DNA of 64,000 bases. Source: Solirubrobacteraceae bacterium. Its GTDB lineage: Bacteria; Actinomycetota; Thermoleophilia; Solirubrobacterales; Solirubrobacteraceae. How positions within the stretch are numbered: position 1 is the first letter of the stretch; the number at the start of each line of letters is the position of its first letter. The notes below the pieces were generated by a model. The model did no database searches. It was not told the origin of the DNA and saw nothing but the letters and a program-made list of their open reading frames with translations. The stretch lies in NCBI GenBank assembly GCA_017744415.1, contig JAGIBJ010000084.1, forward strand, positions 1-64,000, read 5' to 3'. The position numbers and the translations under genes were made by a program. This document shows positions 25,667 to 32,757 of the stretch, one piece after another.

Positions 25667-26476
25667 TTACCGATCCAGGCCGCGGGCGAGGTCTTCCATC
25701 ACCGCGCGGGTCGCCGCGGCACCGTCGGGCTCCCCCGCGGCGCGTACGAGACGCGATCCGACGATCACGCCATCAGCACCTGCGTCGGCCGCCGCAGCAG
25801 CCTGTTCGCCGCTGCTGATGCCGAATCCGAGGGCTACGGGCACGCTCGTCGCGCGCCGCGCGCGCTCGATCACGTCGACGTAGCCGGCCGCGCCCTTGCG
25901 CTCACCGGTGACGCCCGTGGTGGAGACCGTGTAGAGGAAGCCGCGCGCTCGGCCACCGACGAGGGCGAGGCGCTCCTCGGGCGTCGTGGGCGCGATCAGC
26001 GGCACGAGCGCGAGGCCCGCCGCGTCGGCGTGCTCGAGCAGCTCGCCGGACTCCTCGGGCGGGAGATCCGGGACGATCGCGCCGGCCGCGCCGGCCTCGA
26101 CGAGTCGCGCGCAGAACGCCTCAGCGCCGCGCGCCTGCACGATGTTGGCGTAGGTCATCACGACGACGGGCACGCGCGCCGACACGGTGCGGCAGATCTC
26201 GAGGCAGGAGTCGAACGTGGCGCCGTTCTGGAGGGCCACGGTGCCGGCGGCCTGGATCAGCGGGCCGTCGGCGAGCGGGTCGCTATACGGGATGCCGAAC
26301 TCGATCACGTCGGCGCCGCTCTCGACGCACGCCTGCATGATCGCGATGGACGTGTCGTGGTCGGGATAGCCACCCATCACGTACGGCATCAACGCGGCCT
26401 TCCCGGGCGCGCTGTTGATGGCCTGCTCGATGCGCTCGGCGCCGGCGTTGACGGCGGAGGCGGTCGGGTTAGTCAC
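25667..26476 (-). CDS. trpA: Tryptophan synthase alpha chain
   Basis: 269 residues from GTG 26476. It cleaves indole-3-glycerol phosphate to indole and glyceraldehyde 3-phosphate and channels indole to TrpB. The TIM-barrel motifs include [14 protein letters not shown], the catalytic Glu in [17 protein letters not shown], the Asp in [10 protein letters not shown], and the phosphate-binding GFGISSGEQ and [10 protein letters not shown]. Its start overlaps the end of trpB by 8 bp, consistent with coupled, equimolar synthesis. The upstream in-frame stretch to 27076 is a shadow of trpB. Confidence 0.96.
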
Positions 26477-27650
26477 GGGCCAGGACCTCGGCGAGATCCT
26501 TGTCGCCGCGGCCGGAGAGGCAGACGACGTCGAGCGTGGAGGTGTCCTTCGGTCCGTCGAAGACGTAGGCGAAGGCGTGGGCCGTCTCGAGCGCGGGCAC
26601 GATCCCCTCGAGCCGCGCGACCTTCTTGAAGGCGGCCACCGCCTGCTCGTCGGTGACGGCGACGTACTGCGCCCGGCCGCTGTCTCGGAGCCACGCGTGC
26701 TCCGGGCCCGTGCCCGGGTAGTCGAGGCCGGCGCTGATCGAATGCGCTTCGAGGATCTGCCCCTCGTCGTCCTGCATGATCGCCGAGAGCGAGCCGTGCA
26801 GGATGCCGGGGCGGCCACCGACGGTGAGCGGGGCGCCGTGGCGCGGCGTGTCGATGCCGTCGCCGCCCGCCTCAACGCCGACGAGCGCCACCTGGGGGTC
26901 GTCGACGAAGCCGGCGAACATGCCGATCGCATTGCTGCCGCCGCCGATGCAGGCGAGGGCACGATCCGGCAGGCGGCCGGCCTTCTCGAGGATCTGCACG
27001 CGGCTCTCGTCGCCGATGCGGCGCTGCAGGTCGCGGACGATCGCCGGGTATGGCGCGGGGCCGACCGCGGAGCCAAGGATGTAGTGGGTGTCGCCGACGT
27101 TCGTGACCCAGTCGCGGATCGCCGCGGAGACGGCCTCCTTGAGCGTGCGGGTGCCGTCTTCGACGGGCCGCACCTCGGTGCCGAGCATGCGCATCCGCTC
27201 GACGTTGGGCGCTTGGCGACGCATGTCCTCCGAGCCCATGTAGACGATGCACTGGAGGCCGAACAGCGCGCAAGCGGTGGCGCTCGCGACGCCGTGGGAA
27301 CCTGCGCCCGTCTCGGCGATCATCCGCGTCTTGCCCATTCGCTTGGCAAGCAGCGCCTGCCCGAGCGCGTTGTTGAGCTTGTGGCTGCCCGTGTGCATGA
27401 GGTCCTCACGCTTGAGCCACACCTCGTGGCCCACCTCCTCGGAGATGCGCTGGGCAAGGTAGAGCGGGGTCGGGCGGCCGCAGTAGTCGGCGAGCAGCTG
27501 GTCGAGCTCGGCGCGGAAAGCGGAGTCGCCCCACGCCTCGATCCAGGCCTGCTCGAGCTCATCCAGTGCGGGGATGAGCGTCTCGGGAACGTAGCGACCC
27601 CCGTAGGGGCCGTAGCGCTCGGGGAGCTTGGCCTCGGTGCTGCGCGTCAT
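26469..27650 (-). CDS. trpB: Tryptophan synthase beta chain
   Basis: 393 residues from ATG 27650. It condenses indole with serine on pyridoxal phosphate to make tryptophan. The start [17 protein letters not shown] is canonical; the PLP lysine is in [15 protein letters not shown]; the phosphate-binding glycines are in [12 protein letters not shown]; the catalytic Glu sits in [12 protein letters not shown]. It follows the trpF reading frame (68 bp from the RGG-frame stop, 16 bp from the uncorrected stop) and overlaps trpA. Confidence 0.97.
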
Positions 27651-27718
27651 AGTCGTGTTCAGCAGACTACGGCGCGCAGGGGCTCGGCGCATCGCGACCG
27701 AGCCCCAGGCGCCGACGT

Positions 27719-29550
27719 CTAGCGCTCGCGGTCGTCGTCTTGATTGCGACCGCGGTCGTCGTACTGCTTGGGACGGCCAGGCCCGCCTTTCGGGCGCGGC
27801 GGGCGATCCGCACGCGGGCCACGGGGGCCACGATCGTCACGGTCGCGGAAGCCGCCACCGCCGCCACGCGGGCCGCGATCATCGCGATCGCGGAAACCAC
27901 CGGGACGCGGGCCCCGGTCATCACGGAAACCACCGCCGCCACGCGGGCCACGGTCATCACGGTCGCGGTAGCCACCGCCGCCACGCGGGCCACGGTCATC
28001 ACGGAAACCACCCCGCCACGCGGGCCACGGTCATCACGGTCGCGGAAACCACCGCCGGGCCGGCCGCCGCCACCGGGACGCGGGCCCCGGTCATCACGGA
28101 AACCGCCACCGCCGCCACGCGGGCCACGGTCATCACGGTCGCGGTAGCCACCGCCGCCGCGCGGACCGCCGCCGTCGTTGTCACGCGGACGGTAGCCGCC
28201 GCCCTCGTTGCGATCGCGGTAACCACCGCCGCCGCCACGCGGGCCGCGGTCGTCACGGAAACCACCGCCGCCACGCGGGCCACGGTCGTCGCGATCGCGG
28301 AAGCCACCACCGCCGCCACGCGGGCCACGGTCGTAGCCGGCGCGCTCGTCACGGCTGCCGTGGCCGCCACGTCCGCGATAGCCCCCGCCACCGCCGCCGC
28401 GTGGGCCACGGTCGTCATCGAAGCTCCGGGGGCCGCGGTCGGTGCCACGGCCGCGCGGGCCGCCATGGGCGCCGCGGGGCGCGCGATAGCCACCGCTGCG
28501 GTCCTCGTAACGACCGGCGCGCGGAGCGTCATCGCCCGCTTCCTCGTCGTCCTCGTCGGCGTCCCAGTCGTCGTCGCCGGGCTCCGACCCACCGACCACG
28601 AGGTCGGCCTCGGCCGAACCGATCACGGTCCAGCCATCGTCGTCGCCAGTCTCCTCAAGTGGATCGGCGTCGTCGAGTTCGGCTTCGCGGGCCTCGTCGA
28701 GCTCGGGCTCGGCCTCGGCGGCCGGTTCCGCAGCGGATTCTTCGTCCGGTGCCGGCGACTCCGCGGGCTCGGCGTCATTGGCCGCAGCCACTTCGGGCTC
28801 GGCGCTTCCTGCCTGCGCTGCATCGCGCTCGGCGTCCGGAGCGGGCTCGTCGGCCGGCTCAGGATTGCTGTGGGATTCCACGTCTACCTCGGCGTCTTCG
28901 CCGTGTTCCGGGCGCGCTGCGGCTACGGCCGCGGCGAACGCCTTGATCTTGTCCAGGTCCTTGATGCCTGGTTGTTCCTCAATACCGCTCGAAACGTCGA
29001 CCGCGAAGGGTGCGACGCGCGTGATTGCATGCCCGACGTTGTCGGGGGTGAGCCCACCGCTGAGAATCAGGGGGATACGGCGCCGGTGAGCGCGCGCGAG
29101 CTCGTGGTCGAAGGTCTTGCCCGTGCCGCCCGGCTCCCCGTCGACGTACGTGTCGAGCAGGTGGAAGTCGACGTCGATCCGGTAGGCCTGCAGGGCGTTG
29201 ACGTCACCGAGCGAGTCGACGCGGGCGGCCTTCACGACCTGCGCGCCCGTGCGGTGGTGCACCTCGGAGCAATACGACGGGCCTTCGGTGCCGTGCAGCT
29301 GCACGAGATCGAGCCCGACCTGCTGGGTGAGCTGGACGACCTCGTCGAGGGGCTGATCGACGAAGACGCCGGCGATCCGCACCTGACGGCGGAACTGCCG
29401 GGCGATCGCCGCCGCCTCGGCGGGGTCGATGTAGCGGGGGGAGTTGGGCCAGAGGATGAAGCCGATCGCCCAGGCGCCGGCCTCGACGGCGGCGGTCGCA
29501 TCCTCCAGCCGCGTGATCCCGCAGAACTTGATGCGCGTCGCTGTTGCCAC
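27719..29550 (-). CDS. trpF: Phosphoribosylanthranilate isomerase fused to acidic linker and RGG-rich tail (tail frameshifted)
   Basis: From GTG 29550, residues 1-212 are a complete TrpF barrel that isomerises phosphoribosylanthranilate to CdRP: catalytic Cys in [12 protein letters not shown], catalytic Asp in HLLDTYVDG, phosphate loops LSGGLTPDN and VDVSSGIE. The same frame then continues: residues 213-345 are an acidic Glu/Asp/Ala/Pro linker, and from about 346 a Gly/Arg-rich tail with repeated [10 protein letters not shown](F/Y)RDR units. After about residue 513 one base is missing (28011-28016) relative to the repeat. In the given frame translation leaves the RGG pattern and stops at 27667; with the base restored it continues and ends at TAG 27719, total about 610 residues. 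RGG tails usually bind RNA and drive condensation. Confidence 0.8.
27740..28520 (-). repeat. Degenerate tandem repeat encoding RGG units of the TrpF tail
   Basis: A short unit of roughly 27-45 bp recurs about a dozen times, recognisable on the plus strand by CCACGCGGGCCACGG followed by TCATCACGG or TCGCGG. It encodes [10 protein letters not shown](F/Y)RDR blocks. Copies are nearly identical at the DNA level toward the 3' end (27830-28150), which suggests recent unit duplication and makes the region prone to slippage or assembly error. Confidence 0.75.
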
Positions 29551-29638
29551 TGCACCTGATGGTAGGGCAGGCGGCACCGCCGCGCGGCGCGCCGGGCGCG
29601 GGTTGCATCGGCCCATGCAGGGCGGCCGGGGCCCGTCG

Positions 29639-30814
29639 TTACGGCGCGGTGACGGTGGTCGGGCGGTTGCCGAGCTTCACGTCGACGCTCTTGCGGTCGC
29701 CCTCGCGCTCGTAGTCGACCTTCACGGTGTCGCCGACCTTCTTGCCGCCGATGTAGGTAGCGAGCTCCTCGGCCGTCGCGAACGTCTCGCCGTCGACGCT
29801 CACGATCACGTCACCGCCGAGATCGACGCTGCCGCCTCCGAGCTCGAACGTGACGCCGCTGTCGCCGGCCTTCAGCCCCGATTTGTCGGCGGGGCTGCCC
29901 TCCTTGACGCTCACCACGAGCAGACCCTTGCCGATCTTCACGACCTTGGCGATCTTCTTGTCGATCGGCACGGTCGTCACGCCGAGGAAGGCGACCTGCA
30001 CCTCCTTGCCGGCCTTCAGTGTCGGGAGCACCTGCTCGACCTTGTCGACCGGGACGGCGAAGCCGATGCCGACGTTGCCGCCGTTCTCGGTCTGGATCTG
30101 CGAGTTGACGCCGATCACCTTGCCCTGCGCGTCGAGCAGCGGGCCACCGGAGTTGCCCTTGTTGATCGCGGCGTCGGTCTGGATGACGTTCGTGATCTTG
30201 AAGCCGTTGAGCCCGTCGATCTTGCGCGCGAGCGCGGAGACAACGCCCGTCGTCAGGGTGCGGTCGAGGCCGTACGGGTTGCCAATCGCGACGACCGGAT
30301 CGCCGACCTTGAGGCGCTTGGCGGTGCCGAGGTCCAGCGGCTCGAGATCGTGCGCGTCGGGGTCGACCTTCAGCACGGCAAGATCGGAGTTCACGTCGAT
30401 GCCCTGCACCTTCGCGTCGATGGCCTTGTCGGCACCGAACTGCACGGTTGCCTCCTTGGCGCCCTGCACGACGTGCGCGTTGGTGACGATGAAGCCGTCC
30501 TTCGACACCACGAAGCCGGTGCCGGTCGACTCGCCCTGCTGCTCCTGCTGACCGAACGGCGAATCAACCTGCTCAGTGACGAGTGCGTTCACGAGGACCA
30601 CGCCCGGGCTCGTCTTCTCGTAGATCTCGGCCGGCGTGAGTGCGCCGTCGCCCGTGCTCTCGTTGCTCGGCTGCGAGCTCGCCGAGAGGGGCGCCTGCTG
30701 CACGACGGTCGCGTCGCCGTCGCTCTTGATGAACTCGTCGTACGCCGCAGCCCCGCCGAGGCCACCCGCCACGGCGACGACGAGCGTGCCGAGAAGCGTT
30801 GCTTTGCGCCCCAT
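29639..30814 (-). CDS. HtrA/DegP-like trypsin-type serine protease with PDZ domain
   Basis: 391 residues. An N-terminal membrane anchor (ATLLGTLVVAVAGGLGGAAA) precedes the protease domain outside the membrane. The catalytic triad is visible: His in VTNAHVVQGA, Asp in VNSDLAVLKV, Ser in NKGNSGGPLLD. A C-terminal PDZ domain (LLVVSVKEGSPADKSGLKAGD, then VIVSVDG) binds substrate C-termini or senses misfolding. HtrA proteins degrade or refold damaged exported proteins. It sits inside the trp operon: its ATG overlaps the trpC stop by one base, and trpF starts 88 bp after it. That placement is unusual. Confidence 0.93.
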   Translation of the reverse strand: MGRKATLLGTLVVAVAGGLGGAAAYDEFIKSDGDATVVQQAPLSASSQPSNESTGDGALTPAEIYEKTSPGVVLVNALVTEQVDSPFGQQEQQGESTGTGFVVSKDGFIVTNAHVVQGAKEATVQFGADKAIDAKVQGIDVNSDLAVLKVDPDAHDLEPLDLGTAKRLKVGDPVVAIGNPYGLDRTLTTGVVSALARKIDGLNGFKITNVIQTDAAINKGNSGGPLLDAQGKVIGVNSQIQTENGGNVGIGFAVPVDKVEQVLPTLKAGKEVQVAFLGVTTVPIDKKIAKVVKIGKGLLVVSVKEGSPADKSGLKAGDSGVTFELGGGSVDLGGDVIVSVDGETFATAEELATYIGGKKVGDTVKVDYEREGDRKSVDVKLGNRPTTVTAP

Positions 30815-31611
30815 CAGTGGTGCGCCTCGTCCTCCGGGCCCGCGAGCACGCGGGTGGCCACGGAGAGGTCTTCGGAGCGCATGAGAGCCTCGCCGATCAG
30901 CACGGCATCGCAGCCGACACGCTCGAGCTCGTCGATCTGCTCGCGATGGTAGAAGCCGGATTCGGCGACGACGGTCTTACCGGCGGGCACGTCGACGAGG
31001 AGGTCATGCGTGCGGGCGATGTCGACGGTCATGTCGGTGAGATCGCGGTTGTTGATCCCGATGATGTCAGGGTCCATCACCTCGAGGGCGGCCTCGAGCT
31101 CCTCAGGGCCGTGCACCTCGACGAGCACGTCGAGGTCGAGCTCGCGCGCCTGCGCGTGGAGCTCGGCGAGCGCCAGCGGCTCGAGAGCGGCGACGATCAG
31201 GAGGATCGCGTCGGCCTCCCAGGCCGCCGACTCGACCACCTGGTAGGGGTCGACGATGAAGTCCTTGCGGAGGATCGGGAGATCGACGGCGGCCTTCGCG
31301 CGGCGCAGATCGGCGAGCGAGCCACCGAAGTGGGCCTCGTCGGTGAGCACCGAGATCGCGGACGCGCCACCCTCCTCGTACGCGCCGACGATGTCCTCGA
31401 CCTCGAGGTCTTCGCGGATGCGGCCGGCCGACGGCGAGCGCCGCTTGTGCTCGGCGATCACGGCGACGCCGGGGCGCAGCAGCGCCTCGTTGAACCCGCG
31501 CGGCTCGCTGCGCTCGGCGGCGAGGCGCTCGAGCTCGGCGTAGGCGACCTGTTTGGCGCGGCGCGCGACATCCTCGCGCGTGCGCTCGATGATCTTCTCG
31601 AGGTGGTTCAC
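30814..31611 (-). CDS. trpC: Indole-3-glycerol phosphate synthase
   Basis: 265 residues from GTG 31611. It closes the indole ring of CdRP with loss of CO2 and water. Motifs include the catalytic Lys and Glu in AVIAEHKRRSPSAG, the Lys in ILRKDFIVDPYQV, the Glu in LVEVHGPEELE, IIGINNRDL and VVAESGF. It is stand-alone, not fused to TrpF. It starts 2 bp after the trpD stop and overlaps htrA by one base, so all three are translated together. Confidence 0.96.
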   Translation of the reverse strand: MNHLEKIIERTREDVARRAKQVAYAELERLAAERSEPRGFNEALLRPGVAVIAEHKRRSPSAGRIREDLEVEDIVGAYEEGGASAISVLTDEAHFGGSLADLRRAKAAVDLPILRKDFIVDPYQVVESAAWEADAILLIVAALEPLALAELHAQARELDLDVLVEVHGPEELEAALEVMDPDIIGINNRDLTDMTVDIARTHDLLVDVPAGKTVVAESGFYHREQIDELERVGCDAVLIGEALMRSEDLSVATRVLAGPEDEAHH

Positions 31612-31613
31612 AG

Positions 31614-32642
31614 CTAAGCCACCGCCTCGGTGGTCGCAGCGACGAGCTCGTCGAGCACGCGCGCGGCACTTCCGGTGTCGATGGACTGGCGGGCGAGGTC
31701 GGCGCCTTCGGCGAGCACGTCGGCGAGCCCCGCGACGACCAACGTCGCTGCGGCGTTCAGCACGACCACGTCGCGCGCCGGTCCAGGTTCCCCCTCGAAC
31801 ACCCTTCTGATGGTGGCAGCGTTCTCGGCGGGACGCCCCCCTTCGAGCCCGGCGAGCGATTCGCGGCGCTCGATGCCGGCCTCCTCGGGGTTCACCTTGA
31901 ACCGCACGAGCTCGCCGTCGGCACGCACGTCGATCACCGCCGACGTGGCCGCGATCGAGAGCTCGTCGAGCCCGTCTTGCGAGCGGAGCACCCAGGCGCG
32001 CTCCACACCGAGATCGGCGAGGGCCTCAGCGATCAGCGCCATGCGCGACGGGTCGGCGACGCCGATCACCTGGCGGACCGCCCCGGCGGGGTTGGTGAGC
32101 GGGCCGAGCACGTTGAAGATCGTGTGCACGCCGAGCGCGCGGCGAACGGGGATCACGTGGCGCATCGCCGGGTGATGGCGCGGCGCGAACATGAACCCGA
32201 AGCCGATCTCGTCGATGTTCTGCGCCGTGCGGAGCGGGTCGACGTCGATGTCGACGCCGAGGGCCTCGAGCACGTCGGCGGAGCCGCACTCGCTGGTGGC
32301 CGAACGGTTGCCGTGCTTGGCCACGGCGGCGCCGGCGCCGGCGGCCACGAGCGCGGCGGCAGTCGAGACGTTGAAGGTGGTGAAGCCGCCGCCGCTGCCG
32401 GCGGTGTCGACGAGCGGGCGCCGCGTCGCGTGCACCGGCTCGAGGTGGGCACGCATGCCGCGCACGAGCCCGGCGAGTTCGTCGCGGGTCTCCCCCTTGC
32501 CGCGCAGGGCGACGAGCAGCGCTGCGGTCTGCACCTCGCTGGCCTGGCCTCGCATGACGAGATCCAGTGCGGCCTCGGCCTCCTGGCTGGAGAGGCTCTC
32601 GCCGATGATCAAGCGCTCGATGACGGCCGTGAGGTCGTGCAT
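31614..32642 (-). CDS. trpD: Anthranilate phosphoribosyltransferase
   Basis: 342 residues from ATG 32642 (GTG 32675 would add 11). It joins anthranilate to PRPP. The typical N-terminus IERLIIGESLSSQEAEAALD supports the ATG. PRPP-binding motifs DTAGSGGGFTTFNVSTAAA and KHGNRSATS are intact, and FMFAPRHHPAMRHV and NVLGPLTNPAGA are conserved. A 16-bp perfect palindrome lies between trpG and trpD about 115 bp upstream. The gene is followed closely by trpC. Confidence 0.96.
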   Translation of the reverse strand: MHDLTAVIERLIIGESLSSQEAEAALDLVMRGQASEVQTAALLVALRGKGETRDELAGLVRGMRAHLEPVHATRRPLVDTAGSGGGFTTFNVSTAAALVAAGAGAAVAKHGNRSATSECGSADVLEALGVDIDVDPLRTAQNIDEIGFGFMFAPRHHPAMRHVIPVRRALGVHTIFNVLGPLTNPAGAVRQVIGVADPSRMALIAEALADLGVERAWVLRSQDGLDELSIAATSAVIDVRADGELVRFKVNPEEAGIERRESLAGLEGGRPAENAATIRRVFEGEPGPARDVVVLNAAATLVVAGLADVLAEGADLARQSIDTGSAARVLDELVAATTEAVA

Positions 32643-32757
32643 CGGCTCGGGACTTCGTGGGTCTTCGTCAGGCACTGGTCGGAGAAAGATAGACGGTCGT
32701 GCGGGCTCGCGTGTGATCGCGCTCCCAGAGCGGGGACGCCCGCCTCGGCGCGCGGTT

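Follow-up and report, generated by a model that had tools for sequence, protein, structure and literature searches.

The window, a stretch of 64,000 nucleotides, carries within its tryptophan gene cluster a phosphoribosylanthranilate isomerase (TrpF) that is prolonged at its C-terminus by an acidic linker and a long RG/RGG tail. TrpF is a known enzyme, and RGG tails are familiar from RNA-binding proteins; what is new here is the architecture that combines the two. On balance, we consider it probable that this is a working TrpF that its helicase-like tail would tether to RNA or to RNP condensates. The gene is made up of the following parts:

28912..29550, minus strand: trpF, the TrpF (phosphoribosylanthranilate isomerase) barrel, 213 aa, with a GTG start and with Cys10 and Asp133 present
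28522..28911, minus strand: acidic linker, 130 aa, pI 4.05, net charge -49, joined to the barrel without a stop
28018..28521, minus strand: first part of the RG/RGG tail, 168 aa, in the TrpF frame, pLDDT 35-43
28012..28013, minus strand: junction of the frame change (-1), one base short of the repeat consensus; the RGG frame of relatives runs to the stop
27719..28015, minus strand: last part of the RG/RGG tail, 97-98 aa in the -1 frame, its end conserved in L138 and L139, where trpB follows closely

The barrel is a complete phosphoribosylanthranilate isomerase, as the earlier note on this DNA had read it. In profile searches it matches PF00697 with an E-value of 1.5e-45 (155.7 bits against a cut-off of 22.7) and exceeds the cut-off of the NCBIfam TrpF equivalog NF002298 (236.4 bits against 215), and among solved structures it is closest to the T. 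maritima enzyme (PDB 1lbm/1nsj, E 6.7e-42). AlphaFold2 models the barrel with confidence (pLDDT mostly >90). In TrpF catalysis a cysteine acts as the general base and an aspartate as the general acid; both residues, Cys10 and Asp133, align with 1lbm and are invariant in 16 relatives, and the glycine-rich motifs of the phosphate site, LSGGL and DVSSG(I/V)E, likewise aligned with 1lbm, are invariant or nearly so in these relatives. The TrpF of the window is probably a normal, active enzyme. Its GTG start, at 29550 on the minus strand, is conserved in L034. The interval 27719-29550 fits the intended gene exactly, but this gene is encoded by the minus strand and is not one open frame. A plus-strand ORF of 643 aa (27628-29559) is the antisense of trpF and was rejected as spurious.

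Beyond the barrel, the acidic stretch of about 130 residues without an intervening stop and the RGG-rich tail of about 270 residues that had been described earlier were both recovered, the former with 130 aa and a net charge of -49 and the latter with 267 aa. The tail holds 11 RGG and 30 RG in 266 residues and has a net charge of about +24, its halves contributing about +15 and +9. The linker carries the motif LDDxDPLE[D/E], conserved in the genus, and D-x-W. A Pfam search with linker and tail matched no family. Disorder prediction, suggested in the earlier note, agrees with an unfolded extension: in the AlphaFold2 model pLDDT is mostly <50 past residue 220, including most of the linker, where a short helix is predicted at residues 286-293, and the RGG/RG repeats are clustered, as in RG/RGG-motif proteins, in a region predicted to be disordered (tail pLDDT 35-43). 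In simple pairwise counts dN/dS is ~0.2-0.25 for the barrel, ~0.3-0.55 for the tail and ~0.6-0.9 for the fast-evolving linker. Judged by such sequence comparisons, the linker is loosely constrained and the tail is under protein-level selection.

The whole gene had been taken for one frame, and this reading has to be corrected. The assembly lacks one base between 28012 and 28013, where GGCGGGGTGGT stands in place of the repeat reading GGCGGCGGTGGT, and the tail is split over two frames, with 168 + 2 residues in the TrpF frame and the final 97 in the -1 frame. The deposited TrpF frame departs from the RGG repeats after residue 513 and continues for another 118 residues, rich in Ala and Val, until it meets a stop at 27667; the RGG frame has its stop at 27719, and the interval length of 1832 (3n-1) is consistent with a one-base shift in the tail. 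At the DNA level the repeat units match in register only, with zero out-of-frame repeat pairs, and mismatches between them fall 18/17/64 at codon positions 1/2/3 (pairs across the shift, at least 85% identity), a third-position excess that is seen before the shift as well as across it. These two properties, together with the presence of the tail in relatives of the same genus, argue that the tail is not a product of chance, and the codon-position bias and the relatives likewise identify the RGG frame as the true frame to the end. Since the RGG frame of the relatives is intact to its stop, the shift is particular to the window and is due either to an error in the assembly or to a mutation of recent date. 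The chance that it is instead a programmed -1 frameshift giving two forms of the tail is practically nil, and this candidate was rejected: both frames are open for ~100 codons, but the seven bases at the site misfit the slippery pattern X XXY YYZ, the site differs from the repeat consensus by the lack of a single base, the other frame is Ala/Val-rich, and the relatives, which have no shift, read RGG to the stop.

Tandem repeats of this sort, next to a variable linker, might also represent a GC-rich minisatellite that grew by slippage at the 3' end of trpF and is tolerated as nearly neutral, and the breaks of the relatives' assemblies at the tail and the one-base deletion in the window copy would fit such an origin. 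We regard it as unlikely in view of the retention of the tail across species of the genus whose barrels differ by a dS of ~0.5-0.9, the third-position bias between repeats, a tail dN/dS below 1 and the conserved tail end.

The genus, one of soil and water actinobacteria, consists of four genomes, the one that contains the window and those of three other sequenced species, all four of which have a TrpF with an acidic linker containing LDDxDPLE[D/E]. The start of the RGG tail lies on the TrpF contig in L034 and L035, with no stop between TrpF and RGG, and the TrpF contig of a third relative stops where the tail would start. In L138 and L139 the trpB contig begins within the RGG tail, whose conserved C-terminus immediately precedes trpB; the tail end of L139 (...RGGPGRPRPFDDRGRPENDDRDR, then the stop) and that of L138 match the tail end of the window, and the basic C-terminus GGPGRPK is conserved. 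The 5' side of the tail is thus seen in two relatives and the 3' side in two, with no relative contig spanning the whole tail. This, and the frame break within the tail, would fit a chimeric assembly or a separate gene for the RGG protein, a reading that is largely refuted and very improbable, since in independent assemblies TrpF, linker and RGG follow one another with no stop (L034, L035) and RGG is followed by a stop and then trpB (L138, L139). A stop at residue ~212 with an independent RGG start, the arrangement that the earlier note had opposed to a fusion, was looked for in the close relatives and occurs in none of the four genus members. A genuine fusion of TrpF, acidic linker and RGG tail is supported.

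Outside the genus, the 106 other TrpFs of the order end soon after the barrel, with a median extension of 15 residues and a maximum of 89, and RGG was present in none of the 105 C-terminal extensions measured, one TrpF-TrpB fusion being set aside; the search for RGG extensions among related TrpFs that had been proposed thus found them kept across the genus (linker in 4/4) but in none of the 106 others. Shorter TrpF extensions of up to 89 residues were seen in L036, L037, L015 and L103, several of them acidic and some with EEVLTL-like motifs. In L096 (G207:C154), from the same family, TrpF and TrpB share a reading frame of 649 aa with no stop between the enzymes. The assemblies of L033, L034, L035, L138, L139 and L161 are broken or N-filled at the RGG repeats of trpF and of the helicase described below, so that tails of this type may be overlooked in genomes assembled from short reads.

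The surroundings of the gene are those of a trp cluster:

26469..27692, minus strand: trpB, downstream neighbour (longest ORF; likely start near 27650), TIGR00263 568 bits
25667..27076, minus strand: ORF containing trpA (trpA part = residues ~220-469), TIGR00262 E 2.9e-69
29639..30814, minus strand: htrA-type serine protease, upstream neighbour within the trp cluster, TIGR02037 E 6.3e-89
30814..31611, minus strand: trpC, NF001377 over cut-off
31614..32675, minus strand: trpD, TIGR01245 E 2.2e-111

The htrA-type protease gene of the window sits between trpC and trpF, directly upstream of trpF, and many genomes of the order have a serine-protease motif, GNSGGP, at a distance of ~550-840 nt upstream of trpF. 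The gene order htrA-trpF-trpB is common to relatives in the order, and the distance from the end of the trpF barrel to the TrpB motif HTGSHK, 250-554 nt in relatives, grows to 1516 nt in the window; the kept order and the longer distance together place the tail at the 3' end of trpF. No separate gene for the RGG tail was found between the trpF barrel and trpB, and such a gene was rejected in view of the gene order and the contig arrangements given above. An Rfam search around the operon gave no match at gathering thresholds.

A genome scan for CGNGGNGGNTWYSGNGAY, which covers one motif only and would let other RGG tail types escape, gave clustered coding hits at a single further site, a DEAD-box RNA helicase (L160/L185, G000:C117, about 26.0-27.9 kb, minus strand) that has them in its tail of 216 residues; in this one-motif scan, clustered RGG[F/Y][R/G]D occurs in the TrpF and helicase tails only. 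The two tails have the words DDRGPR, RGPRGG and PRSFDD in common, and their local alignment scores 310, against 190 +/- 15 (maximum 249) for shuffled sequences, a control that the repeats make lenient. Because the tails are of low complexity, this score is weak proof of common descent, and the similarity may be convergent. Helicase homologues from other genera with a readable C-terminus have a shorter, mostly RGG-poor tail (0-5 RGG). Of 395 other genomes in the phylum sample, nine contain DRGPRGGGG, with no tail comparable to that of TrpF among them: eight have single matches in unrelated-looking alternate frames, and the ninth match, in L216, yielded no reading frame.

We propose that the locus gives one polypeptide, in which the C-terminus of TrpF would have been extended in the ancestor of the genus by the acidic spacer and the 267-residue tail, and that the tail most likely acts as does the RGG tail on the DEAD-box RNA helicase encoded in the same genome. 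Its arginines, and the aromatics of its GGFRD/GGYRD repeats, would touch RNA weakly and multivalently; affinity for RNA may be weak, the tail being only mildly net basic with many Asp. The acidic spacer would hold the basic tail away from the barrel and may bind it in cis or in trans. TrpF would in this way be placed on RNA (polysomes or RNP bodies, perhaps the same ones in which the helicase resides) with its chemistry unchanged. RNA binding by the tail is suggested by its composition and by its similarity to the helicase tail; TrpF might also enter condensates, and tryptophan synthesis or control of the trp mRNA might benefit. The scaffolding of other Trp enzymes by the tail and a link to mRNA, both raised in the earlier note, are likewise conjectural. 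The fuller scheme, in which an RNA-tethered TrpF co-condenses with the RGG-tailed helicase, binds its own trp mRNA or polysome and couples tryptophan synthesis to RNA metabolism, has little likelihood at present.

The strong charge segregation of the extension (linker -49 versus tail ~+24), and the short acidic extensions that are common on TrpFs of the order, could also be accounted for by a tail with no specific RNA role, serving as a solubility or entropic-bristle element or as a tag whose self-interaction, linker against tail, brings Trp enzymes together in clusters. We find this rather doubtful, since the wording of the tail matches that of an RNA helicase tail and the conserved basic C-terminus GGPGRPK exceeds bulk charge.

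Compared with known TrpFs (PF00697; T. maritima 1nsj/1lbm), the window TrpF has the same complete barrel, catalytic Cys and Asp and trp-cluster site beside trpB, but also ~397 extra C-terminal residues of linker and RGG tail. It resembles the RGG-tailed DEAD-box helicase in tail composition and words, whereas here the tail is carried by an isomerase rather than an RNA-binding core and is preceded by the -49 linker. As in the bifunctional fusions TrpC-TrpF and TrpF-TrpB (NF010376), the latter seen in L096, TrpF is joined to an N- or C-terminal partner, but the partner in the window is a disordered tail and not an enzyme. Reports of metabolic enzymes that bind RNA or enter condensates are frequent, but such enzymes usually have no dedicated domain for it. 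Some, such as aconitase, are found in bacterial RNA degradosomes or BR bodies, to which an RNase E scaffold recruits them (PMC9312465); the placing of a metabolic enzyme with RNA machinery is the outcome proposed for TrpF, although its recruitment would be through its own tail. A TrpF-RGG fusion was not found in the literature searched, in agreement with the earlier note, which knew of none, and the titles and abstracts of literature on phosphoribosylanthranilate isomerase with a C-terminal extension held nothing relevant.

A core biosynthetic enzyme has in one genus gained a built-in tail of the RNA-binding-protein type, and the retention of this tail in related species suggests that TrpF may be tied there to RNA or to RNA-protein droplets. 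The gain is recent enough for close relatives without the tail to provide natural controls, so that the effect of an RGG tail on an enzyme is directly testable.
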